Virus record (IMG/VR): IMGVR_UViG_3300031857_000139
Span: 1 to 64,000 of that record
Strand: one strand, 5' to 3'
DNA from: a virus
DNA: 64,000 nucleotides
Shown here: positions 5,962 through 55,072 of the stretch, in pieces
Numbering within the stretch: position 1 is the stretch's first letter
Layout: every line of letters starts with the position of its first letter
Translations under genes and position numbers: made by a program
Notes under the pieces: model-generated
Databases searched by the model: none
The model's input: only the letters and a program-made list of their open reading frames with translations
Told to the model about the DNA's origin: nothing

Positions 5962-6750
5962 ATGAGTATATACGCTAGATTAGGTTTTAATTTTGATACT
6001 GCCAAATTTGATGGTGCAGATACTCTTTCACCTGGAGTTTTAAATTTCCTTGGAAATACATCAATTAATTTATCTCAATGGCAAATTGATGATATCTCAT
6101 CAAATACAGTTTACGGATATTTTCAAAATCCACATAACGATAATTTGGGAGTAATTTCTGTATTTGTAACCGGTATTGCTTCATATGCAAACACAATAAA
6201 TTACAATTATAATAATACAGATTTGGCCAATACGATGGCCAATGTCGCTTTATCTACCTACAGTTCACTACAAAATTTTGCAAATCATACCAATAATCTT
6301 TCTGGTGTAACTGTTTCTACTGATGCAACTTTATATCCTGATTTAAATCTAGCTTTAGCTGTTGGTCGTCAAATGTTGAACATTACAAACAAGAGTGATG
6401 GTGTTCAAAATAACGTTCCTATTCTTGGTAATTTTACAAGTTTGTATATTGGTCCAGATTTGTCTGCACAGGCAAATGTTTTGGCCAATGATTATATTGT
6501 TTTAAGTAATTCTTTTTCTGGTGCAAATAGTAATGTTTCAAATGCCACAATGAATACAATCATTTTTGATATACAAACACTTCAGACATTAATTGATGAT
6601 AGAAGAAATGGTGATATTACTTTTTACACCAATTCAAACGAAATAATGCAAGAATATTTTACTGTATTACAATTCTCAAATCTTGGTGCTACACAAAACT
6701 CATTGATTGAGTTAATAGGCACAGATAAATTAAAAGAAGATTTATCATGA
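5962..6750 (+). CDS. Unknown structural protein after the spike gene
   Basis: A 262-residue protein. The ATG at 5962 follows the spike stop by one base; an upstream in-frame start lies inside the spike gene and is not used here. The sequence begins [18 protein letters not shown] and is rich in Asn, Thr and Ser with no signal peptide or membrane segment. The middle (about 75-200) is mostly helical ([20 protein letters not shown]), with a [13 protein letters not shown] segment. I recognise no family. The stop overlaps the next gene by four bases (ATGA), linking it to the fibre gene that follows, so a baseplate-attached fibre base is a reasonable guess. Confidence 0.6.
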
Positions 6751-7550
6751 GTTACACAATATCTGTTCCTGCCGAATCAATACAAAAAGCAAATCAATAT
6801 AGTCCTACCATTGTTATAGTTAGTGGTGGTGTTAGTTTTGCTAATGGTGTTTCTTTAACATCATACTACACACCATATCCTAGCGGTAGTAATAGTGGAG
6901 GAGGAAACGGCGCAACTGGTGCCACAGGCCCAACTGGACCAACAGGTCCGACAGGACCAGCAGGACCGGCCGGCGGTGCTACTGGTTCAACCGGTCCATT
7001 AGGTGCAACTGGTTCCACAGGACCAACAGGACCTACAGGTCCTGCAGGTGGTGCCACAGGTATACAAGGTGCAACAGGACCAACAGGCCCAACTGGACCT
7101 ACAGGACCAACTGGTGCAACTGGAACACAATATACAACTGCATCAAATGTTCAATTAAATTCTTTGGGTATTGGCACACCTGCATCAGGCACAACTGGTG
7201 AGATTCGTGCAACAAATGAGGTGACTGCTTATTATTCTTCTGATGAACGACTTAAAGAAAACATTAAAGAAATTGGTGCAGCTCTTTACAAACTACGCAA
7301 AGTTCGTGGTGTTATGTTTGACTGGAAAGATGAAGTCATTGAAAAACGAGGTGGTGAAGATAAGTATTTTGTTCGCAAACACGATACAGGCGTAATTGCA
7401 CAAGAAATTGAACAGATATTACCTGAAGTGGTTGCAGTTAGAGAAGATGGATACAAAGCAGTTCGTTATGAAAAACTTGCAGGTATTATTATTCAAGCAA
7501 TTAACGAATTAGCTGATGATGTAGAAGAAATAAAAAAAAGGTTGAAGTAA
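6747..7550 (+). CDS. Collagen-like tail fibre with S74 intramolecular chaperone
   Basis: A 267-residue fibre. Residues 1-54 form a small N-terminal domain ending in a Gly/Ser linker. Residues about 55-127 are collagen-type Gly-X-Y triplets (mostly GPT, GAT, GPA) with two interruptions at GGA. Residues about 163-267 are a peptidase S74 / endosialidase chaperone domain: S165-D166-x-R168-L-K170 keeps the self-cleavage motif, followed by [15 protein letters not shown] and a terminal helix EEIKKRL. The chaperone drives trimer folding and normally cuts itself off. The gene follows the unknown structural gene with an ATGA overlap and precedes a glycine-rich adhesin. Confidence 0.88.
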
Positions 7551-9752: not shown

Positions 9753-11828
9753 ATGGCAGGCGCAAATTCTAATATCCAAATGACAGATTTGGATTTTAAC
9801 ACAATTAAGAACAACCTTAAAACATACTTACAATCACAAGATGTATTGAAAGATTATAATTATGAAGGTTCTGCTCTTTCTACTCTACTAGACATTCTTG
9901 CATACAATACACAATATAACGCCTACTATCTGAATATGGTGGGTAACGAGATGTTCTTGGATACTGCCATTCAGCGTGGTTCAGTTGTATCTCAAGCCAA
10001 GATGTTAAACTACACACCTCGGTCTGCCATTGCACCAACAGCAACCATTGATTTGATAGTCAATGGTGTAACTCAATCATCTTTGACATTACCAAAGTTT
10101 ACATCTTTCATGTCAGAGGCTATTGAAGGTGTCAACTATAACTTTGTAACGGCAGATGCATATACAGAGAATACTGTTGGTGGTGTAGTTACTTTCAATA
10201 ACATCACCTTAAAACAAGGTCTGGCTACAACACTTAATTTTACCGTTGATTCAATTAACAATCCATCATACACATTTGAAATACCTGATGAGAATGTTGA
10301 TACATCAACTATTGTGGTTACTGTGCAACAATCATCTTCAAATGCAGCCAGTGATGTATATATTTTGGCAACCGATTTTCTTTCTGTAGGTGATGATTCA
10401 AAAGTATACTTCTTACAAGAAAGTTTGAATAACACTTACGAAATCTATTTTGGTGATGGTGTAATTGGTAAACAATTGGTTGATGGAAATATTGTTAATG
10501 TTTCTTATGTTGTTACTTCAGGCACAGGCGCTGCTGACGCAAATAACTTTGTATTGATGGATACAATTGTTGGTTATTCAAATACATCGGTAATTCCTGT
10601 AAGTGCTGCCACATCAGGTAATGAAAGAGAAACAATTGAATCAATCAAGTATCAGGCACCAAAATCATATTCAGCACAAAATCGTGCAGTTAATAAGAAT
10701 GATTACATTACTGCCATTCAGCAGAACAATTTAGGTATTCAATTTGATGCAGTCAATGTGTGGGGTGGTGAAGAAAATGATCCACCTGTCTATGGTCAAG
10801 TGTTTGTTTCGTTAAAACCAACTGGTGCATTTAGTTTAACACAGGTACAGAAACAACGAATTACCGAAGAAATTCTTAAACCAATCTCTGTGTTGACCGT
10901 GACACCTACAATTGTTGATCCTGATTATACATATATTCAACTCAATGTCAATGTAGTCTATGATCCAACCAAGACAACTCAGACATCTACTCAGTTGGCT
11001 GCAGGTATCAAATCAGCCATTCAAACATTTGGTAATGACACACTCAATACATTTAATTCAACATTCAATACCTATGACCTGTTGAATACGGTACAGAATT
11101 ATAGTTCTGCCGTGGTGACGAGTGAGTTTGATTTGAAACTACAGAAGAAGTTTTTACCAAACTTAACTACACCTACAACATATAAACTGTATTACAATTC
11201 TTCACTACAAGCAGGAAGATATTTGTCTGGCACAAGTAGTTCACCAGCATTACAGTTCAGAGATCCGACCAATCTAGCCAATATTATTGACGGTATCTAC
11301 ATCGAAGAAGTTCCATCATCTACCAATGGTGTTGAAAGTTTATCTGTTTTAAATCCAGGTTTTGGCTATCAATCACCACCAACAGTAACAATATTGGGTG
11401 ACGGAACAGGTGCAACGGCAACAGCCGTTATCTCTGGTGGTACAATTAAGAGTATTACAGTAGATACACCAGGAAATGGTTACACGAGTGCATTGGCCAC
11501 AATCACACCAGCTGATGGTGATACAACAGGTCAACTTGGTGCCGCCATTGTAAATCTTGAAGGTCGTTATGGTACACTCAGAAGTTACTACTACGATTCA
11601 AATAATGTAAAGAATATTTTCAATTCAAACATTGGTACAATTGACTATCAAGAAGGTATTATCACACTCAATTCATTTAGTCCAATTCAAGTAGACGATA
11701 CCTTTGGTCAACTTGCAGTGACTACAACACCAACAACATCAATCGTTTCATCTACCTATAATCGAATCATTACAATCGATCCATATGATGTAACAGCAAT
11801 CACAGTTAATGTCACGGCCAGAACATGA
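9753..11828 (+). CDS. gp6: Baseplate wedge protein gp6
   Basis: A 691-residue protein (T4 gp6: 660), the J-family wedge protein that forms the inner baseplate iris. The N-terminus has L-K-T-Y-L-Q-S-Q-D and Y-N-Y-E-G-S-A-L-S-T-L-L-D-I-L-A-Y-N-T (about 28-55), then NAYYLNMVGNEMFLDTAI. A middle dimerisation region contains KSYSAQNRAVNKNDY (about 308-322). Residues about 525-600 hold a double GxGY beta repeat (NPGFGYQSPPTVTI...TPGNGYTSALATI) not present in T4 gp6. The stop overlaps the next gene by four bases. Confidence 0.92.
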   Translation: MAGANSNIQMTDLDFNTIKNNLKTYLQSQDVLKDYNYEGSALSTLLDILAYNTQYNAYYLNMVGNEMFLDTAIQRGSVVSQAKMLNYTPRSAIAPTATIDLIVNGVTQSSLTLPKFTSFMSEAIEGVNYNFVTADAYTENTVGGVVTFNNITLKQGLATTLNFTVDSINNPSYTFEIPDENVDTSTIVVTVQQSSSNAASDVYILATDFLSVGDDSKVYFLQESLNNTYEIYFGDGVIGKQLVDGNIVNVSYVVTSGTGAADANNFVLMDTIVGYSNTSVIPVSAATSGNERETIESIKYQAPKSYSAQNRAVNKNDYITAIQQNNLGIQFDAVNVWGGEENDPPVYGQVFVSLKPTGAFSLTQVQKQRITEEILKPISVLTVTPTIVDPDYTYIQLNVNVVYDPTKTTQTSTQLAAGIKSAIQTFGNDTLNTFNSTFNTYDLLNTVQNYSSAVVTSEFDLKLQKKFLPNLTTPTTYKLYYNSSLQAGRYLSGTSSSPALQFRDPTNLANIIDGIYIEEVPSSTNGVESLSVLNPGFGYQSPPTVTILGDGTGATATAVISGGTIKSITVDTPGNGYTSALATITPADGDTTGQLGAAIVNLEGRYGTLRSYYYDSNNVKNIFNSNIGTIDYQEGIITLNSFSPIQVDDTFGQLAVTTTPTTSIVSSTYNRIITIDPYDVTAITVNVTART

Positions 11829-30676: not shown

Positions 30677-32224
30677 ATGGCCACACAATTACAACTGAGA
30701 AAAGGTAATACAGCACAGACCGCCGTGTTCACGGGTGCTCTTGCTGAAGTTACTGTTGATATCGACCAAGATACCGTTGTTGTCCATGACGGCACAACAG
30801 TTGGCGGTAATTATATTGTCACCAAAGCACAGTTAGAAAGTAATGTTTCTATACTACAAGGTATCAACACCACACAAAATACTAATATTACGGCAGTTAA
30901 TGGATTTGCCGCTGGTGCTTTCAATACTGCTAACGGTGCCAATGGTTTGGCTGCCGGTGCTTATAATACTGCCAATACTAACGCTACAAATATCTCAATC
31001 ATTCAAGGTGTCGACCTTACTCAGAACACCAACATTACAGCAGTAAACAACTATGCCGTTTCTGCATACAATCAAGCCAATACCAATGCAACCAACATTA
31101 CAGCAGTAAATGGTTTTGCTCAGAGTGCTTTCAATACTGCCAACGGTGCCAATGGTCTGGCTGCTGGTGCCTATAATCAGGCAAACTCAGCTTATTCTTA
31201 TACTACACAAGTAGAAGCCATTGCACAGAACGCATACAATAAAGCCAATTCGGCCTTTGATTCTTCTAATGCAGTAAATGGTTTTGCCATCTCTGCTTTC
31301 AACAAAGCCAATTCGGCCAACATTTTAGCTCAAGCAGCCTTCGATACAGCAAACTTAAAGTTTGATACTTCTGGTGGTAATATTAATGGTGATGTTGTCA
31401 TTACTGCTAACAATGATTTAACTGTTACTGGTAACTTATATGTTTTAGGTAACACAGTTTCATTTGGTACACAGACCTTAGAAGTTGTTGACCCAATGAT
31501 TTTGTTGGCAACAGGAAACTATTCAACTGATTTATTAGATATTGGTTTTGCTGGAAGTTATAATGATGGTGCAAATGCTCATACAGGTTTGTTCCGAGAT
31601 GCAACAGGCAATAAAGACTGGTACTTCTTTGAAGGTTATACTCCTGAAGTTAGTGGTAATAATAACATTATTATTGCTGATCCATCATTTAGAACTTCAA
31701 ATGTCAATGTTAATTATTTAAAAGGTAACCTAATTGCTACGACAGCAGTTGTTGGTGACCGAAACATACTAACCTATACACAAGCAGCTTTTGATACTGC
31801 TAATACTGCGAACACACGAGCAAATGATTCTGTATTAAAGTCTGGTGACACAATGACCGGTTCGTTGACAGGTGTAACAACACTTGGTGCAACTACAATT
31901 AGTTTGGCACAAGTAGATGCAACAAGTAATACATTTACAACAGGATCTACTTCACAAGTTTCTATTGATGCATGGCCAACAGCCTCATATCGTTCTGCCA
32001 AATACTTTGTTCAAGTTTCTTCTGGTACTGATTTTCATATCATTGAATTAAATCTAGTTCATGATGGCACCACAGTATTTTTGGCACAATATGGTGAAGT
32101 ATTAACCAGTTCTTCTCTAGGAACATTTGATGCTGATATTTCTGGTTCAACAGTTCGTTTATTGTTTACTGGTGTAAATGCAGTATCAACAGTCAAAGTT
32201 TTAAGAACTGTGGTGGATGCATAA
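30677..32224 (+). CDS. Long tail fibre with TQNTNI coiled-coil repeats
   Basis: A 515-residue fibre. The head (about 1-50) reads ATQLQLRKGNTAQTAVFTGALAEVTVD...VVHDGTTVGG, the tropism-determinant N-terminal type. Residues about 55-230 are a long trimeric coiled coil built from ILQGINTTQNTNITAVNGFA units and AFNTANGANGLAAG repeats. Residues about 240-350 are the NDLTVTGNLYV...VDPMILLATGNYSTDLLDIGF module shared with 27273. Residues about 420-515 are the C-terminal domain (SYRSAKYFVQVSSGTDFHIIELNLVHDG...STVKVLRTV) found in many cyanophage fibres and in the gene at 29609. It is the last fibre before the oxygenase gene. Confidence 0.82.
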   Translation: MATQLQLRKGNTAQTAVFTGALAEVTVDIDQDTVVVHDGTTVGGNYIVTKAQLESNVSILQGINTTQNTNITAVNGFAAGAFNTANGANGLAAGAYNTANTNATNISIIQGVDLTQNTNITAVNNYAVSAYNQANTNATNITAVNGFAQSAFNTANGANGLAAGAYNQANSAYSYTTQVEAIAQNAYNKANSAFDSSNAVNGFAISAFNKANSANILAQAAFDTANLKFDTSGGNINGDVVITANNDLTVTGNLYVLGNTVSFGTQTLEVVDPMILLATGNYSTDLLDIGFAGSYNDGANAHTGLFRDATGNKDWYFFEGYTPEVSGNNNIIIADPSFRTSNVNVNYLKGNLIATTAVVGDRNILTYTQAAFDTANTANTRANDSVLKSGDTMTGSLTGVTTLGATTISLAQVDATSNTFTTGSTSQVSIDAWPTASYRSAKYFVQVSSGTDFHIIELNLVHDGTTVFLAQYGEVLTSSSLGTFDADISGSTVRLLFTGVNAVSTVKVLRTVVDA

Positions 32225-32230
32225 TAAATA
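32223..32230 (+). promoter_or_regulatory. Late-promoter-like AATAAATA before the oxygenase gene
   Basis: AATAAATAG overlaps the stop of the fibre gene, 29 bases before the oxygenase start, the same spacing as for gp48. It suggests that the oxygenase/glycosyltransferase pair is transcribed late, with the fibres. Confidence 0.55.
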
Positions 32231-32259: not shown

Positions 32260-32838
32260 ATGAAAGGTGAGTGGTGTTATTTTAAGAATTATTTTACGCC
32301 TGAACAATGCGATAAAATATTACGAGATGGATTAGAACTGCCAGCACAAGACGCCAAACTTGGTGTCGCTGGCATGAGTGAATACAGCAATGATGATTAC
32401 CGTAAATCTAAAATACGGTTCATTCAACAAGCAAATCATCCTCAGTTTTCATGGCTCTTCGATGAGCTATGGAAAATGGGTATGCAAGCCAATCGTGATT
32501 GGTTTAATTTTCATATTACCAATCTGTCTTTTGTTCAACTAGCCGAATACGATGAATCATATCAAGGTGAATACAAGAAACACCATGATGTGTTTTGGAT
32601 TAACAATGATAATTACCATCGTAAACTCACCTGTGTAATTCAATTAACTGACCCATCTACATATGAAGGTGGTGATTTTGAGATGTATGATTTGAATGAA
32701 GGACCAAACAAAGAAGAACTACGCACACAAGGTACAGTAATCTTTTTGCCATCGTTTATTAATCATGCGGCTTTACCAGTGACCAAAGGTACACGATATA
32801 GTTTGGCAGTATGGTTTGAGGGGCCAAAATGGGTATAA
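32260..32838 (+). CDS. 2-oxoglutarate/Fe(II)-dependent oxygenase, prolyl-4-hydroxylase type
   Basis: A 192-residue enzyme of the double-stranded beta-helix dioxygenase superfamily. The iron site is H108-x-D110 (in KKHHDVF) and H169 (INHAALPV), and R179 (GTRYSLAVW) is placed to bind 2-oxoglutarate. YEGGDFEMYD (about 135-144) is the usual strand before the core, and FLPSFINHA matches the family. These enzymes couple decarboxylation of 2-oxoglutarate to hydroxylation of a substrate, often proline in proteins. The gene overlaps the glycosyltransferase by 10 bases, has its own promoter motif, and lies directly before collagen-like fibre genes. Substrate by inference: Gly-Pro-Thr fibres. Alternatives are a nucleotide, lipid or other protein substrate. 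Confidence 0.88.
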   Translation: MKGEWCYFKNYFTPEQCDKILRDGLELPAQDAKLGVAGMSEYSNDDYRKSKIRFIQQANHPQFSWLFDELWKMGMQANRDWFNFHITNLSFVQLAEYDESYQGEYKKHHDVFWINNDNYHRKLTCVIQLTDPSTYEGGDFEMYDLNEGPNKEELRTQGTVIFLPSFINHAALPVTKGTRYSLAVWFEGPKWV

Positions 32839-33974
32839 AACATAGATACCATATTCTTGGCCTTCCTCACACAGTTACATCAAAAGAATACAATGCGTGT
32901 GCCTATACTCAGAAGGTCTATAAGTTTGGTAAGATGATGACGGCTCGTGGTCATGAAGTGATTCACTATGGCCATGAAGAATCGGATTTACCATGCACAG
33001 AACACGTTACAGTTATCACTAATGATGACCTAAAGATTGCTTATGGTAACTATGACTGGCGTAAGAACTTCTTTAAGTTTGACACCAACGACCATGCATA
33101 CAAAACATTTTATGCCAATGCAATTCGTGAAGTAGGTAAGCGTAAACAAAAGAATGATTTTATATTACCTTTTTGGGGTGCAGGTACACGACCAGTTTGT
33201 GATGCACATCCAGATATGATTACTGTTGAACCAGGAATTGGGTATGCAGGTGGTCATTGGGCTCGATTTAAAATCTTTGAATCTTATGCCATATACCACG
33301 CATACTATGGTTTAGAATCTGTTGGTACCTGTAAACAAGATTGGTACGACACGGTGATACCTAACTATTTTGATCCAGAAGATTTTACATACAACGATAA
33401 GAAAGATGATTACTTTTTATTTCTAGGTCGTGTGTATGAAGGTAAAGGTGTAAACATAGCGGTACAGGCTACCGAAGCCATTGGTGCCAAACTGATTATT
33501 GCCGGTCAGAATTCATTGAAACAAATGGGTTATACCAAAACACCAGCTCATGTTACCGAATTAGGATATGCAGATGTGGAAACAAGGCGTAAACTAATGG
33601 CAAATGCCAAAGGTGCCTTTGTTGCTTCGTTATATACCGAACCTTTTGGAGGCGTTCAGGTCGAGTGTTTGTTCTCAGGTACACCCACGATAACAACGAA
33701 TTGGGGTTCGTTCACGGAGAACAACATCCATGGTGTTACGGGGTATCGGTGCACCACCTTTGAACAGTTCACATGGGCTGCCAAGAATATTGGTAATATT
33801 AAGCCAGAAGCCTGTAGGGACTTTGCACTAAATAACTTTAGTTTGGATGTGGTAGCACAGAAATATGAGGAATATTTCCAATCGGTACTCAATGTATATA
33901 ATGGTAATGGATGGTATGAAAAAAATGATACCCGTACCGAATTGAACTGGTTAAACAAATACATTCCGGCATAA
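32829..33974 (+). CDS. GT-B glycosyltransferase (GT4-like)
   Basis: A 381-residue enzyme with two Rossmann-type halves. The N-terminal half begins with a KHRYHILGLPHT strand and has EPGIGYAGG (about 134-142). The C-terminal donor-binding half has FLGRVYEGKGVNIAVQA (about 198-214), KLIIAGQ, and the E-x7-E motif E271-PFGGVQV-E279 followed by CLFSGTPTI, as in GT4 retaining transferases. The donor sugar cannot be told. It overlaps the 2-oxoglutarate oxygenase gene by 10 bases, and a late-promoter motif plus collagen-like fibre follows. Inferred role: sugar transfer to hydroxylated residues or threonines of the fibres. Modification of DNA or host surface sugars is the alternative. Confidence 0.87.
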   Translation: MGIKHRYHILGLPHTVTSKEYNACAYTQKVYKFGKMMTARGHEVIHYGHEESDLPCTEHVTVITNDDLKIAYGNYDWRKNFFKFDTNDHAYKTFYANAIREVGKRKQKNDFILPFWGAGTRPVCDAHPDMITVEPGIGYAGGHWARFKIFESYAIYHAYYGLESVGTCKQDWYDTVIPNYFDPEDFTYNDKKDDYFLFLGRVYEGKGVNIAVQATEAIGAKLIIAGQNSLKQMGYTKTPAHVTELGYADVETRRKLMANAKGAFVASLYTEPFGGVQVECLFSGTPTITTNWGSFTENNIHGVTGYRCTTFEQFTWAAKNIGNIKPEACRDFALNNFSLDVVAQKYEEYFQSVLNVYNGNGWYEKNDTRTELNWLNKYIPA

Positions 33975-33977
33975 ATA
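33970..33977 (+). promoter_or_regulatory. Late-promoter-like CATAAATA
   Basis: CATAAATA overlaps the glycosyltransferase stop, 30 bases before the TTG start of the collagen-like fibre. This is the best-spaced match along with the one at 1316. Confidence 0.6.
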
Positions 33978-34007
33978 TAAAGATAAACCAACGGGGATAT
34001 GTGAACC

Positions 34008-34120
34008 TTGGCAACAAATTCTAATTTCATAATCAAAAATGGCCTAACTGTAGGCTCAAATACTGTAATTGCCGCAAACGGTATGTGGGTTGGTGCGAAC
34101 ACCAATCTGATAGGTGCTAC
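34008..34120 (+). repeat. Fibre docking segment, copy 1 of 3
   Basis: Nearly identical DNA and protein start shared with 39202 and 45432: [16 protein letters not shown], then (S/A)[17 protein letters not shown]. It probably marks the part that attaches to a common tail site and serves as a site for recombination. Confidence 0.85.
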
Positions 34121-35159
34121 TGGCCTTACTGGTGCCACCGGTCCTACAGGACCAACAGGTGCGACAGGTGTTGGTGCCACAGGTTCTACAGGTGTCATCG
34201 CACCGTGGGTCTACATCACAACCAATACCAATGCAGTAGCCAATTCTCAATACATCGCCAATACAGTAGGCGGTGCTTTCACTCTCACACTTCCAGCCAG
34301 TCCAGTTTTAGGTACCACAGTTATCGTAACTGATGGTGGTAATTGGGCTAATAATAATCTCACAATCGGTCGTAATGGTAAGACGATTGAGGGAGATGCT
34401 TCTGATTTGATTTGTGATGTAGGTCAGACAACGATTCAGTTAATCTATGACAACATTACATGGCAGACCACGGCTACCATCGGTTCTCGTGGTGCCACCG
34501 GTATTACAGGAGCCACGGGTGCTCCGGCTGCATGGACATATATCACCGCCAATACAACAGCTGGTGCCAATACACAATACATCGCCAATACAAATGGTGG
34601 TGCGTTTACATTAACACTACCAGCCACACCAGTTACAGGTACCACAGTAACGATTACTGATGGTGGTAATTGGGGTGCCAATAATCTTACCGTAGCACGC
34701 AATGGTTCTACGATTGAAGGTGTTGTGGATGATGTATTACTCAATCTACCACAGACATTAGTATACTTTATCTACACCAATAATACATGGCAGGTTGTTA
34801 CGACAGCCGGTTCACAAGGTGCTACTGGTGCAACAGGTACAGCTGGTGCAAATGGTGCCACAGGCCCAACAGGTCCTACAGGACCTACAGGTCCTACCGG
34901 TCCGACAGGCCCAGCTGGCGCCACAGGTGTTACAGGACCAAGTGGGCCAACTGGTGCTACCGGTGTGGCTGGACCATCTACAATTTCTTCAGGAGTTTTG
35001 ACACTTTCGACATCAACTCCTTTTGTTTTGTATGCAAATTCAATTACAGCAAACTATACGATACCAACAGGTTACAATGCATTAGTCGCTGGACCAATCA
35101 CCATAAATACTGGCGTTGATGTCAATATTGCAAATGGTGCAGCTCTTGTAATTGTATAA
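34008..35159 (+). CDS. Collagen-like tail fibre with docking head and connector tail
   Basis: A 383-residue fibre. The start is a TTG, supported by paralogs at 39202 and 45432, which begin with ATG at the same point ([16 protein letters not shown]), and by CGGGGA upstream. Layout: docking head 1-35; short Gly-X-Y run (about 36-62); beta domain ([20 protein letters not shown]...GKTIEG); second short run; a near copy of the beta domain (about 177-265); long GPT/GAT run (about 272-326); and a C-terminal connector [17 protein letters not shown]...GAALVIV, which recurs as separate genes at 42018 and 51716. It is a candidate substrate of the adjacent modification enzymes. Confidence 0.85.
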
Positions 35160-37105: not shown

Positions 37106-38170
37106 ATGCCAATAACACAAAGTTCAATCGCTAGTAATGTAATCTCAGGTGCAACAGGCCTGACAGGACCTACTGGCCCTACAGGACCAAATGGACCAAC
37201 TGGCGCAACAGGTCCTACAGGTCCTACTGGACCAAATGGACCTACGGGACCTACCGGTGCTACTGGTGGTACACCGTGGTTGTTAAATGGAACAAGTGCT
37301 TATTATAATTCAGGTAGTGTTGGAATTGGTACTTCTACTCCTAATGATAAATTAGATGTAAACGGCACAGACGCTTTTGTTCGAATTGATAGGTCTAATG
37401 GTGAGCCGGGAATTACCATGAGGTATGCTGGTTCAACAACCAATCGTGGTGACATTCTTCTTACTACTGGTGGTGCAATGTATTTTACTTCTGGTGGCAC
37501 CACAGAACGGATGCGTATTGACTCTAGTGGGAACGTAGGTATTGGTACCACTACCGCTGGCGGTGCAAGATTACAGTTATTCATAAACAAGTCTAATACA
37601 ACAACGACTGATATGACGGATAACTCAACCTTAAGCCTTGCCAACTCTGGTACAGGTAACGGTGTGTTTAACTGTATTAAATTTGCTGCTAATCAGCAGG
37701 ATATGTTTATTTCTTCATTTAATAACAATACCCAAGCAAATAGAAGAATTGGTTTTTTTGTTGGTAGCGTAGCTGGTAATGCTACAACTGATGAACAAGT
37801 AAGTATTTACGGTAATGGTAACTTTGCCTTTAACTCAGGCTATGGTTCAACAGCTGTTGCATATGGCTGTCGTGCATGGGTAATGTTTAATGGTACGAAT
37901 GGAGCTATCAGCGCTTCTGGAAATATAAGTTATGTTACTAGAAACGGAACAGGCGATTACACAATAGGATTCTCTAACGGTATGCCAGATGGTGCTTATG
38001 TAATTTCAGGAATGTTAAAACCAACATCTGGCCAAGCAGGTAATAATTCAAGGTCTGTAAATATTGCATACGATACAACTCCATCTACCTCTTCATTTAG
38101 AGTTAGAACTGCAACTTCTAGTGCTGGTTATGAGGATCCTCAGTATGTTTATTTAACTGTTCACAGATAA
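37106..38170 (+). CDS. Collagen-like fibre with 'VGIGT' shaft and 'AWVMFN' tip
   Basis: A 354-residue fibre. The N-terminus is [18 protein letters not shown]. Residues about 15-55 are Gly-X-Y triplets (GPT, GPN, GAT). Residues about 57-235 form a beta shaft with [20 protein letters not shown] and [20 protein letters not shown], motifs usually found before S74 chaperones. Residues about 245-354 are a tip domain ([36 protein letters not shown]...GMPDGAYV). Close DNA similarity to 53933 around the GGCTGTCGTGCATGGG segment points to exchange of tips. No family C partner follows this copy. Confidence 0.8.
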
Positions 38171-38177
38171 AAAATAA

Positions 38178-38888
38178 ATGCCAAATTTAAGTAATCTAAT
38201 CTCGTCAGCTATCTCAGGTGCCACAGGTGCGGTGGGTCCTACAGGACCAACAGGACCAAATGGCGCTACAGGTATTACTGGTTCTACAGGCCCAACAGGA
38301 CCAGGTGGTCCAACAGGACCAGTAGGTGCAACAGGATTAACTGGCGGTCAAGGTGCCACAGGTGTTACAGGTCCTACAGGACCAGGTGGTCCAACAGGAC
38401 CTACGGGGCCAATTGGTGCTACAGGTGTTACAGGAACAGGTGCAGTTAAACAAGTTGTAAGTGTTACAAAACAAGATCCTTTCACAACAACAAATACAGG
38501 TTACATTGATATTACTGGCATGGCTGCAACAATTACACCAACAAGTGCAACAAGTAAAATATTAGTTTCTGTTCAATTAAGTCTTGCTGGTACAAACAAT
38601 ACCTATCATTGTTATATACGATTAAATAGAAATGGTTCCAATATTTCAGGAAGTAATGGAACATGGAGTACCAATTTATCCATGATGCATAAAAATATTA
38701 ACGACTCTCGTGATTTGGATACTCATGCAATGAATTATTTGGATTCTCCTGGAACAACTTCTGCTGTTACATATCAATTACAAATAGCTGTTCAAGGAAA
38801 TACATTTTTTGTAAATCGTGGTGGTAATACTGAAAGTTTTTCAGCTTCAAATATTTCCACAATTACACTTATGGAGATTGCAGCATGA
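38178..38888 (+). CDS. Collagen-like fibre with 'LMEIAA' tip
   Basis: A 236-residue protein. The N-terminus [17 protein letters not shown] is followed by a long uninterrupted Gly-X-Y run (about 14-88; [12 protein letters not shown]). Then comes a tip domain of the type seen at 36394 ([13 protein letters not shown]...[17 protein letters not shown]...[20 protein letters not shown]...[10 protein letters not shown]). This fuses a collagen shaft and a tip that are separate genes elsewhere. It overlaps its family A partner by four bases. Confidence 0.8.
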
Positions 38889-39201: not shown

Positions 39202-39314
39202 ATGGCAACCAATTCTAACTTTATAATCAAGAATGGCCTCACAGTAGGCTCCAATACCGTTATTGCTGCCAATGGTATGTGGGTTGGTGCCAATACAAAT
39301 CTTGTAGGCGCCAC
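39202..39314 (+). repeat. Fibre docking segment, copy 2 of 3
   Basis: Counterpart of 34008-34120 and 45432-45544. Most differences are at third codon positions. Confidence 0.85.
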
Positions 39315-40053
39315 AGGTCCTACAGGTCCCACCGGTCCAACAGGACCACAAGGTGCAACAGGACTGGGTGCAACAGGTGCCACAGGTATCATTGCACCAT
39401 GGATTGTTATCTCTGCAAATACAAATCTCATAGCGAATACTCAGTATCTTGCTAACACACAAGGCGGTGCATTTACAGCCACACTACCTGCCACACCATC
39501 GATTGGTACGATTGAAGTATTACAAGATTCTAGTGGTACATGGGGTAATAATAATTTAACGATTGCTCGTAATGGTTCACTTATTGAAGGTGTTGCAGAT
39601 GATTTAATCTTAAACATCGGTAGCTCATTAGTATATTTGATATACGATGGTACTTCATGGCAGTTATCATCAACCGCAGGTCCAGCCGGTGCAACAGGTG
39701 CCACAGGACCACAAGGTGCTACTGGTGCTGGTGCAACAGGTGCTACGGGTGTTTCTGGTCCAATCGGACCAGGAGGTCCTGCCGGCCCATCAGGACCTAC
39801 AGGCCCAACTGGTGCAACAGGTCTTACAGGACCAACAGGACCATCAGGTACAGCAGGTGCAACTGGTGTTACAGGACCAATTGGTGCCACAGGAACTACA
39901 GTAACGGATAACGGAATCATTGTGCAAGGTGCCACGATATCATCAAATGTAACTATTCTATCAGGCAACAATGCGTTCTCAGTTGGACCAATCACACAAG
40001 CAAATAATGTTGTGGTGACATTGGGTGATAATTCTCGTTGGATAGTAATTTAA
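39202..40053 (+). CDS. Collagen-like tail fibre with docking head and connector tail
   Basis: A 283-residue paralog of 34008. It has the docking head [16 protein letters not shown] with a [15 protein letters not shown] run, one beta domain ([20 protein letters not shown]...[14 protein letters not shown]), a long Gly-X-Y region (about 160-232; includes GPG, GPS, GLT) and the connector [27 protein letters not shown]. The duplicated beta domain of the 34008 version is single here, consistent with internal duplication or deletion. It follows its upstream neighbour by five bases with an AATTAAATG start context. Confidence 0.83.
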
Positions 40054-45431: not shown

Positions 45432-45544
45432 ATGGCAACCAATTCTAACTTCATAATTAAAAATGGCCTGACAGTAGGCGCTAACACCGTTATTGCTGCC
45501 AATGGTATGTGGGTTGGTGCAAACACAAATCTAATTGGTGCTAC
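45432..45544 (+). repeat. Fibre docking segment, copy 3 of 3
   Basis: Counterpart of 34008-34120 and 39202-39314. It ends at the beginning of the collagen-like run. Confidence 0.85.
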
Positions 45545-46013
45545 AGGTCCACAAGGCGCTAGCGGTCCAACAGGACCTACAGGCCTCACAGGTCCTACAG
45601 GTCCAGGTGGTCCTGCCGGTCCTACAGGTCCTACTGGTGCAACAGGTATTGGTGCTACAGGTGCCACAGGTCCTGATGGTCCAATCGGTCCTACAGGCGC
45701 AACAGGTCCAGCCGGTCCAACAGGACCTCAAGGCGCAACAGGTGTAACAGGTCCTACCGGCCCAGCAGGACCAATCGGACCAGGAGGCCCAACAGGACCA
45801 ACTGGACCTGCAGGTGCTACAGGAGTATTCTCTGGCACCACAACAGAACAAATTATTACAAGCAACACAACAGTATCTACATCAAACACAACAGGTGCTT
45901 TGATTGTTGCTGGCGGTGCAGGTATTTCTGGTAATGTATATGCCAATGCCGTGTATGCCAATAATGTAGACATCATTAATACCAGCATCGTATACTCTAT
46001 GGTGCTCGGATAA
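45432..46013 (+). CDS. Collagen-like tail fibre with docking head
   Basis: A 193-residue protein. It has the docking head of 34008/39202 ([29 protein letters not shown]), directly followed by the longest continuous Gly-X-Y run in the window (about 36-134; [15 protein letters not shown]), and a C-terminal beta segment [31 protein letters not shown]. It lacks the internal beta domains and the connector of its paralogs. With the Pro and Thr content of about 33 triplets it is the simplest candidate substrate for hydroxylation/glycosylation. Confidence 0.83.
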
Positions 46014-53932: not shown

Positions 53933-55072
53933 ATGCCAATCTATCAAAGTTTCGTTGCAGGCTCAGGAATATCAGGTGCTACAGGACCTACGGGGCCAAA
54001 TGGACCAAATGGACCTACGGGACCTAATGGACCAACAGGACCTACAGGACCAGCTGGTGCAACAGGTGTAACTGGTCCCACAGGACCAACAGGTGCTACT
54101 GGTTCTGCACCATGGGTTACAAGTGGTTCAGACATTTATTATAATAATGGAAATGTTGGAATTGGTACTAGTAGTCCTGCTGTTACATTAGATATGCTTG
54201 GAACTTATATTCAAGGCGGAAGTAGTAGAACAGACAGTGCAACTAAAGTTTCTAGTTATAGGGTTGTAAATTGTTTCAATGCAACAAATCCATTAAATAT
54301 TATTGCTGGTTTGTCTACCACCAGTGTCAACCAAGTTTATATTGGTGGAAATGATACAAATTTTGCTGGAACTGCTGCAACCAATATTTTATTTTATACA
54401 GGAGCAAGCAGCAATACTGCAAACGGTACAGAGCGTATGCGTATTACCTCTGCTGGTAATGTTGGTATTGGTACTAGTAGTCCTGATAGACCATTAGTAG
54501 TTAGTTCTTCTTCTGATGCTATGACAATTCAGCAAACAGGTGGCGGAGTTGGTTTACAGATGTCCCAATCTTCTGTAAATGATGTTTTATTAAGAATGAC
54601 TAATAACTCTGGTCATTATTGGGACATTCGTAATCAAGGTTCAGGAAGCCAATTTTTAATTGGTGGTTTTTTTGGTGATACTTTAAGACTTGGTACTACT
54701 GGCAACCTTCAATTCAACTCAGGTTACGGCTCGGTCGCTACTGCATACGGCTGTCGTGCATGGGTAAACTTTAATGGTTCTGGTACTATTTCAATTCGTG
54801 CTAGTGGTAATGTTTCTAGTATTTCAGATGCAGGAGAAATGTATTATGGTATAAGTTTTTCTTCTGCAATGCCTGATGCTAATTATGCATGGTTTGCAAA
54901 TGGATCAAATGTTAATAACGATGTTGGTACAAATTATACGGGGTATAGCACCACATCTCCTGGCAATAACCAAACTACAGGATATTTGTTTATTAGAGGA
55001 TTAAATATTTACAATGGTGGAGCAAATCAAAGTGGCGATCCTCCACTAGTTACAGTAGGCATTATTCGTTAA
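53933..55072 (+). CDS. Collagen-like fibre with 'VGIGT' shaft and 'AWVNFN' tip
   Basis: A 379-residue paralog of 37106. [18 protein letters not shown] precedes Gly-X-Y triplets (about 14-60, rich in GPN and GPT). The shaft has [43 protein letters not shown] and [20 protein letters not shown]. The tip from about 265 reads [37 protein letters not shown]...[11 protein letters not shown] and ends VTVGIIR. A split family C partner pair follows. The Pro in the triplets is in the X position throughout. Confidence 0.82.

Follow-up and report, generated by a model that had tools for sequence, protein, structure and literature searches.

Prolyl-hydroxylase-like oxygenase and glycosyltransferase genes linked to collagen-like fibre genes in a T4-like phage

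Introduction

Hydroxylation and glycosylation of collagen are known in animals and in giant and algal viruses. In Bacillus, the exosporium collagen BclA has Thr-glycosylated Gly-Pro-Thr (GPT) triplets, and a GPT repeat with Thr as a candidate acceptor is likewise present in the phage described here, a T4-like phage represented by a 66-kb IMG/VR virus record (IMGVR_UViG_3300031857_000139). Positions 1 to 64,000 of that record were analysed, and this 64,000-nucleotide stretch is referred to below as the window. It contains two overlapping genes, encoding a 2-oxoglutarate (2OG)/Fe(II) oxygenase (OX) and a glycosyltransferase (GT), followed directly by a gene for a collagen-like fibre protein built of Gly-X-Y triplets. 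The evidence presented here suggests that OX and GT probably constitute a collagen-maturation module for the phage's own Gly-X-Y fibres.

A study of phage collagens stated that prolyl hydroxylases able to act at the Y position, as such hydroxylation requires, are absent from bacteria and viruses (PMC3368898), and a survey of Baltic viruses recorded prolyl 4-hydroxylase (P4H) genes with a use that was called cryptic (PMC9301287). No report of a phage collagen in a module with a prolyl hydroxylase, lysyl hydroxylase (LH) or glycosyltransferase was found in the open-access literature.

Results

The OX-GT pair and its linkage to collagen-like genes

The pair and the fibre gene that follows it are organized as listed.

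32260..32838, + strand: OX, 2OG/Fe(II) oxygenase with a predicted prolyl-hydroxylase fold, 192 amino acids (aa); H108-x-D110, H169 and R179 invariant
32829..33974, + strand: GT, predicted GT-B, GT4-like retaining glycosyltransferase, 381 aa; phrog_3408; E271-x7-E279, R201 and K206 invariant
34008..35159, + strand: collagen-like fibre, right after the pair; 19-triplet run with Pro at X in 47%, Thr at Y in 63% and Pro at Y in none

The 3′-end of OX and the 5′-end of GT overlap by 10 bp, and the fibre gene begins 33 bp beyond the GT stop codon. A preliminary description of this DNA had placed both open reading frames (ORFs) here, with the overlap and with a collagen-like fibre immediately downstream, and this arrangement is as described.

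Homologues were collected from viral contigs with both the OX and GT proteins as queries. The strict Gly-X-Y detector required at least 30% Pro; it was later relaxed and every count redone. GT-only loci that appeared under the strict detector to be without collagen were reassessed when whole-record searches with PF01391 revealed Pro-poor collagens there. Among loci with flanks of at least 4 kb, a Gly-X-Y gene lies within 4 kb of OX in 40 of 47. After grouping at 80% identity, 39 OX clusters can be decided and 5 cannot, and 33 of the 39 have a Gly-X-Y gene no further than 5 kb away. Of the other six, three (L101, L152 and L154) have a PF01391 match elsewhere on the record, and at L169, an LH-like locus scored as having no collagen, the repeat is interrupted by an in-frame stop. 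Only the L084/L088 cluster and L105 stand as firm exceptions. In L088 the OX homologue (10001-10576, the same positions as in L105) is located among apparent head genes and fibre-like genes that are not collagens.

PF01391 matches are present in 32 of the 36 OX-containing records of at least 20 kb (near-duplicates kept), and in two of the four collagen-less records OX lies less than 1 kb from the end of the contig. As a control, the uvsW-linked phage 2OG oxygenases were inspected and no Gly-X-Y gene was found near any of their 19 loci, seven of which have 4-kb flanks. When T4-like records were instead anchored on a gp14-like neck gene, collagen was present in 4 of 15 without OX versus 3 of 3 with OX. 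For GT-only loci, a Gly-X-Y gene is within 4 kb in 16 of 36, and a collagen gene is present in 19 of the 23 GT-only records that are 20 kb or longer (near-duplicates kept). The tie to collagen is looser for GT than for OX. The module had been expected to fail if the enzymes were as common without collagen-like genes as with them; OX passes this comparison clearly, whereas for GT the association is weaker. Both the 10-bp OX/GT overlap and a GT-to-collagen gap of 29-50 bp recur among the loci.

Searching in the reverse direction, by DNA pattern, OX was nearby in 8 of 111 GPT collagen stretches and in 1 of 87 GAT stretches. OX is therefore a minority companion of GPT collagens, and the claim is limited to OX implying a collagen and Pro-rich repeats, not the converse. 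A scan of genome contigs identified one bacterial chromosomal OX, with 59% identity, in Aquariibacter albus (L278:10001-10573), and the 10 kb on either side of it contain no collagen gene. A candidate collagen-like repeat is encoded elsewhere in the A. albus genome.

Collagen composition and enzyme content

The remaining collagen-like genes of the window are listed with the lengths of their strict Pro-containing Gly-X-Y runs, counted from at least six triplets.

37106..38170, + strand: collagen-like fibre; 14 triplets; under the Pfam Collagen cut-off (24.1 versus 27.2 bits)
38178..38888, + strand: collagen-like fibre; 25 triplets
39202..40053, + strand: collagen-like fibre; 31 triplets; N-terminus near-identical to that of the 34008 gene product
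45432..46013, + strand: collagen-like fibre; 32 triplets
53933..55072, + strand: collagen-like fibre; 16 triplets
6747..7550, + strand: collagen-like protein with a Peptidase_S74 (endosialidase chaperone) domain; a distant candidate substrate

All seven collagen-like ORFs counted previously are real, with 14 to 32 triplets each, and six of the seven pass the Pfam Collagen cut-off, the exception being 37106-38170. Pro was said to occupy X in nearly all triplets, which is an overstatement, as it does so in 89 of 162 (55%). Thr is at Y in 103 of the 162 and Pro at Y in none, so that an animal-type Y-site hydroxylase is unfitting, and the doubt already voiced about animal-type Y-site prolyl-4-hydroxylation is upheld. 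The animal collagen P4H (C-P4H) model, in which the substrate Pro is at Y, was rejected on this count. Across the OX+GT loci, Pro is at Y in 0.9% of 2001 triplets. A Lys-rich Y position, as would suit lysine modification, is also missing from the window, where Y is Thr-rich and Lys lies outside the commonest triplets.

Composition differs among loci with different enzymes. Median frequencies of Pro at X and Thr at Y are 0.54 and 0.75 in OX+GT loci and 0.08 and 0.51 in GT-only loci. In OX-only loci they are 0.37 and 0.32, with Gln at Y at 0.37, and in loci with OX and an LH-like protein Pro at X is 0.52 and Lys/Arg at Y 0.18-0.44. A linear model that included GC content gave t = 10.9 for OX on Pro at X, t = 12.5 for GT on Thr at Y and t = 25 for the LH-like protein on Lys at Y, although the loci are related by descent so that these p and t values are descriptive and overstate significance. 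GC bias was considered as the source of the Pro difference and ruled out, as the GT-only loci are not GC-poorer but slightly GC-richer than the OX+GT loci. Well-supported branches of the GT tree record four or more gains or losses of OX, with Pro at X shifting accordingly; L108, for example, which has OX and 57% Pro at X, is placed among GT-only rows with 0-31%. Judged from these sequences, collagen composition covaries with the enzymes carried, Pro at X with OX, Thr at Y with GT and Lys at Y with the LH-like protein.

In four GT-only loci (L023, L028, L029 and L052) the fibres encoded beside or near GT are very Pro-poor, with Pro at X in 0-1% and mostly G-A-T or G-A-S triplets. Glycosylated Thr is one candidate for a stabilizer of such Pro-poor triple helices.

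Predicted structure and class of OX and GT

OX matches the Pfam family 2OG-FeII_Oxy_3 (59 bits) and is assigned to phrog_61. The oxygenase residues reported as intact, the HxD...H iron triad H108, D110 and H169 together with R179, are all present and are invariant across 46 aligned homologues. The basic 2OG-binding residue is Lys in collagen P4Hs and Arg in the PHD type, in which the Arg stands ten residues past the distal His, as R179 does in OX. With Arg after the distal His in all 46 rows, OX is PHD-like in this respect. The AlphaFold2 model of OX has a predicted local distance difference test (pLDDT) score of 93.6, and the best solved structural match to it is the Pseudomonas putida P4H (4iw3; Z 19.7), with algal P4H-1 (Z 18.8), PHD2 (Z up to 18.5) and the PBCV-1 viral collagen prolyl hydroxylase (PDB 5c5t; Z 18.1, VIA) close behind and PiuC (Z 16.8) and human LH3 (Z 15.7) ranked lower. 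The top VIA matches, with Z 18-19.7, are all prolyl hydroxylases, and the modelled fold of OX is thus nearest to peptidyl prolyl hydroxylases. Sequence profiles order these families differently, with PiuC/PKHD first and P4H and the collagen hydroxylase P3H1 lower; the PiuC/PKHD profile alignment (PDB) covers only residues ~117-187 and leaves the C-terminal part of the ~225-aa chains outside. OX is a single-domain protein, and so differs from the animal C-P4H large alpha subunit with its peptide-substrate-binding domain. Neither OX nor GT of the window has a Pfam match to a PLOD glycosyltransferase or GT25 domain.

GT matches Glycos_transf_1 (PF00534; 54 bits) and is assigned to phrog_3408 (620 bits). 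The E271-x7-E279 glutamates named in its earlier GT-B assignment are present and, with R201 and K206, are invariant across 37 homologues. The predicted model has a pLDDT of 86 and its best Foldseek matches are UDP-glucose-using GT-B enzymes, several of them cyanobacterial. GT is predicted to be a retaining GT-B enzyme of UDP-sugar type, and the resemblance of the model to UDP-glucose enzymes says nothing of its acceptor.

Cultured phages and replacement transferases

In the Synechococcus phages S-CAM9 and S-PRM1, an OX homologue follows a Gly-X-Y fibre gene of 1.8 thousand codons and is adjoined by a second oxygenase and a 613-aa protein annotated as hypothetical (S-CAM9, NC_031922, L162:16414-18255, + strand; S-PRM1, L163:14961-16805). 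Parts of this 613-aa LH-like protein match procollagen galactosyltransferase (GT25), the LH3 PLOD glucosyltransferase domain and a lysyl hydroxylase domain, so that it is predicted to hold the entire animal-type collagen lysine pathway in a single phage protein. The adjacent collagen is of a rare kind, with Lys/Arg at Y in 41-44% of triplets. Gene order is collagen, GT homologue and then oxygenase in ACG-2014f, and two Gly-X-Y genes followed by GT and oxygenase in S-CAM7; in both phages, GT is accompanied by an oxygenase other than OX. Where an OX locus lacks this GT, the position of GT is taken by other transferases, and the filling of the same slot by unrelated transferases argues for a shared role. 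At L139:10551-14255, and also in L109, L110 and L154, a second 2OG oxygenase, a GT2+DUF6445 protein and a GT2+methyltransferase protein are encoded, and the collagens are Gln-rich at Y.

Genome context and promoter

T4-like families detected in the window include tail tube cap, baseplate wedge, tail fibres, head closure, sheath stabilizer and terminase. The nearest relatives of the terminase, with ~55% identity, are from Synechococcus phages. The OX-GT pair is situated inside the tail-fibre region, and the fibre gene that immediately precedes OX (30677-32224) encodes an N-terminal major-tropism-determinant domain (PF18454).

32224..32230, + strand: ATAAATA, 29 bp upstream of the OX start; a possible late promoter without statistical support

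The pair had also been credited with its own late-promoter motif, which could not be substantiated. No copy of TATAAATA is present in the window. ATAAATA is located at 32224 and 33971, but chance would give 27 matches in the window and there are 18, 17 of them on the coding strand. A late promoter ahead of OX thus lacks support.

Discussion

The proposal that the phage may hydroxylate and glycosylate its own fibres is supported by gene linkage, by covariation of collagen composition with enzyme content and by the fold of OX, a case that is genetic and evolutionary. Late in infection, OX would act as a 2OG/Fe(II) peptidyl hydroxylase on the phage Gly-X-Y fibre proteins, most likely at Pro in the X position, and GT would glycosylate the same proteins, most likely at Thr in the Y position of G-P-T and G-A-T triplets, so that triple-helical fibres are stabilized or decorated. 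Pro at X and Thr at Y are the likely targets as judged by composition; what we infer from this picture is catalysis, exactly which residues and which sugar are involved, when modification takes place and how it affects fibre stability or host binding.

Several observations weigh against such a module. By sequence alone, the solved proteins nearest to OX are PiuC/PKHD hydroxylases and not collagen P4Hs, and the solved structures nearest to GT are glucosyltransferases that act on small molecules or polysaccharides. Two long OX contigs, L088 (39.7 kb) and L105 (77 kb), have no detectable collagen, and in over half of the GT-only loci the collagen genes are distant from GT. Most phage GPT collagens have no OX nearby (8 of 111 do), phage collagens accompanied by neither enzyme commonly have Thr-rich repeats that contain Pro, and the common descent of the loci inflates the statistics, as stated above. 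The OX half of the interpretation is more secure than the GT half.

A first alternative, which we consider unlikely but worth weighing, is that only OX acts on the fibres. GT would then serve a different acceptor, for instance a glycan of the host surface or some other protein of the virion, and merely co-travel in a hypervariable tail region. The low proximity of collagen in GT-only loci (16 of 36) and the glycan- and small-molecule-directed enzymes closest in structure to GT would fit, and glycosyltransferases encoded in phage tail regions are usually interpreted as modifiers of surface glycans (PMC7029224). The long GT-only records nevertheless have collagen genes in 19 of 23 cases, Thr at Y among OX loci is 0.75 with GT versus 0.32 without, the OX/GT overlap and the GT-to-collagen spacing are conserved, and in S-CAM9-type loci the substitute for GT is a homologue of collagen glycosyltransferases.

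We give rather less credence to OX hydroxylating a fibre residue other than Pro, such as Thr, Gln or one located beyond the repeats, and perhaps thereby creating the hydroxyl used by GT. OX-only loci do contain repeats with Gln or Thr at Y besides Pro at X, and the sequence profile of OX is closer to PiuC/PKHD than to collagen P4H, but it is Pro at X that changes with OX, both in the GT tree and in the regression, and the fold points to peptidyl prolyl hydroxylases. Thr, moreover, has its own hydroxyl, so that GT needs no OX.

A role for OX in DNA repair (AlkB-like), or as a 2-oxoglutarate drain that steers host nitrogen signalling, follows earlier interpretations of cyanophage oxygenases but is very improbable here. 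Some of these enzymes adjoin uvsY/uvsX (PMC2984593), and several oxygenases are present in 14 of 16 genomes (PMC3037559). These views were derived from other subfamilies or from the number of such genes. They suit the uvsW-linked type, whose score is 78 bits where the OX subfamily reaches 273-320 and which has collagen neighbours in 0 of 19 loci, whereas the OX subfamily is located in the tail-fibre region next to collagen genes. A chance neighbourhood, with collagen and cargo genes mixing in dense tail-fibre zones with no functional tie, is the least credible account, since although OX is missing near most phage collagens and related phages show hypervariability in this region (PMC7029224), adjacency holds in 33 of 39 decidable clusters with differing phage gene orders, composition covaries with enzyme content, and the pattern is missing from the control oxygenase and gp14-anchored records.

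The proposed collagen-maturation module of the window could be one version of a wider arrangement, which we put forward tentatively, a modular, collagen-specific modification system in bacterial phages. A near-constant prolyl-hydroxylase-like enzyme would be combined with interchangeable, unrelated transferases, namely GT-B for Thr at Y, GT2 for Gln/Thr-type repeats and a fused galactosyltransferase-glucosyltransferase-lysyl hydroxylase for Lys at Y, with the collagen co-evolving and with Pro hydroxylated at X rather than Y. If correct, a role would be gained by a subfamily of cyanophage 2OG oxygenases, abundant enzymes to which DNA repair or nitrogen signalling has hitherto been assigned, small enzymes would become available for making modified recombinant collagen, and, as cultured phages carry such modules, the idea is testable now.

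Among described systems, PBCV-1 vCPH (5c5t) is, like OX, a single-domain viral 2OG prolyl hydroxylase fold with HxD...H, but it is ~19% identical and comes from an algal giant virus, whereas OX is from a T4-like phage and is linked to phage fibre genes. The best structural matches, P. putida P4H (4iw3; Z 19.7) and the HIF hydroxylase PHD2 (Z 18.5), have 16-20% identity and act on EF-Tu and HIF, respectively, whereas OX genes accompany collagen fibres. The cyanophage PHROG 61 oxygenases linked to uvsW/uvsY belong to the OX superfamily but by score form a separate subfamily (78 versus 273-320 bits) and, unlike OX, have no collagen neighbours and a proposed role in DNA repair. Bacillus BclA resembles the phage fibres in its GPT repeat with Thr as the candidate sugar acceptor, but is a spore protein with different enzymes. 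In animals, through LH3 and COLGALT1, and in mimivirus, through L230-R699, a hydroxylase and a transferase act on the organism's own or virus-encoded collagen, as is proposed here. No PLOD or GT25 model is matched by the window's OX or GT, and Y in the window is Thr-rich and not Lys-rich, so that they differ from this route, the homologues of all three activities of which are found within one S-CAM9/S-PRM1 protein, encoded beside an OX homologue.

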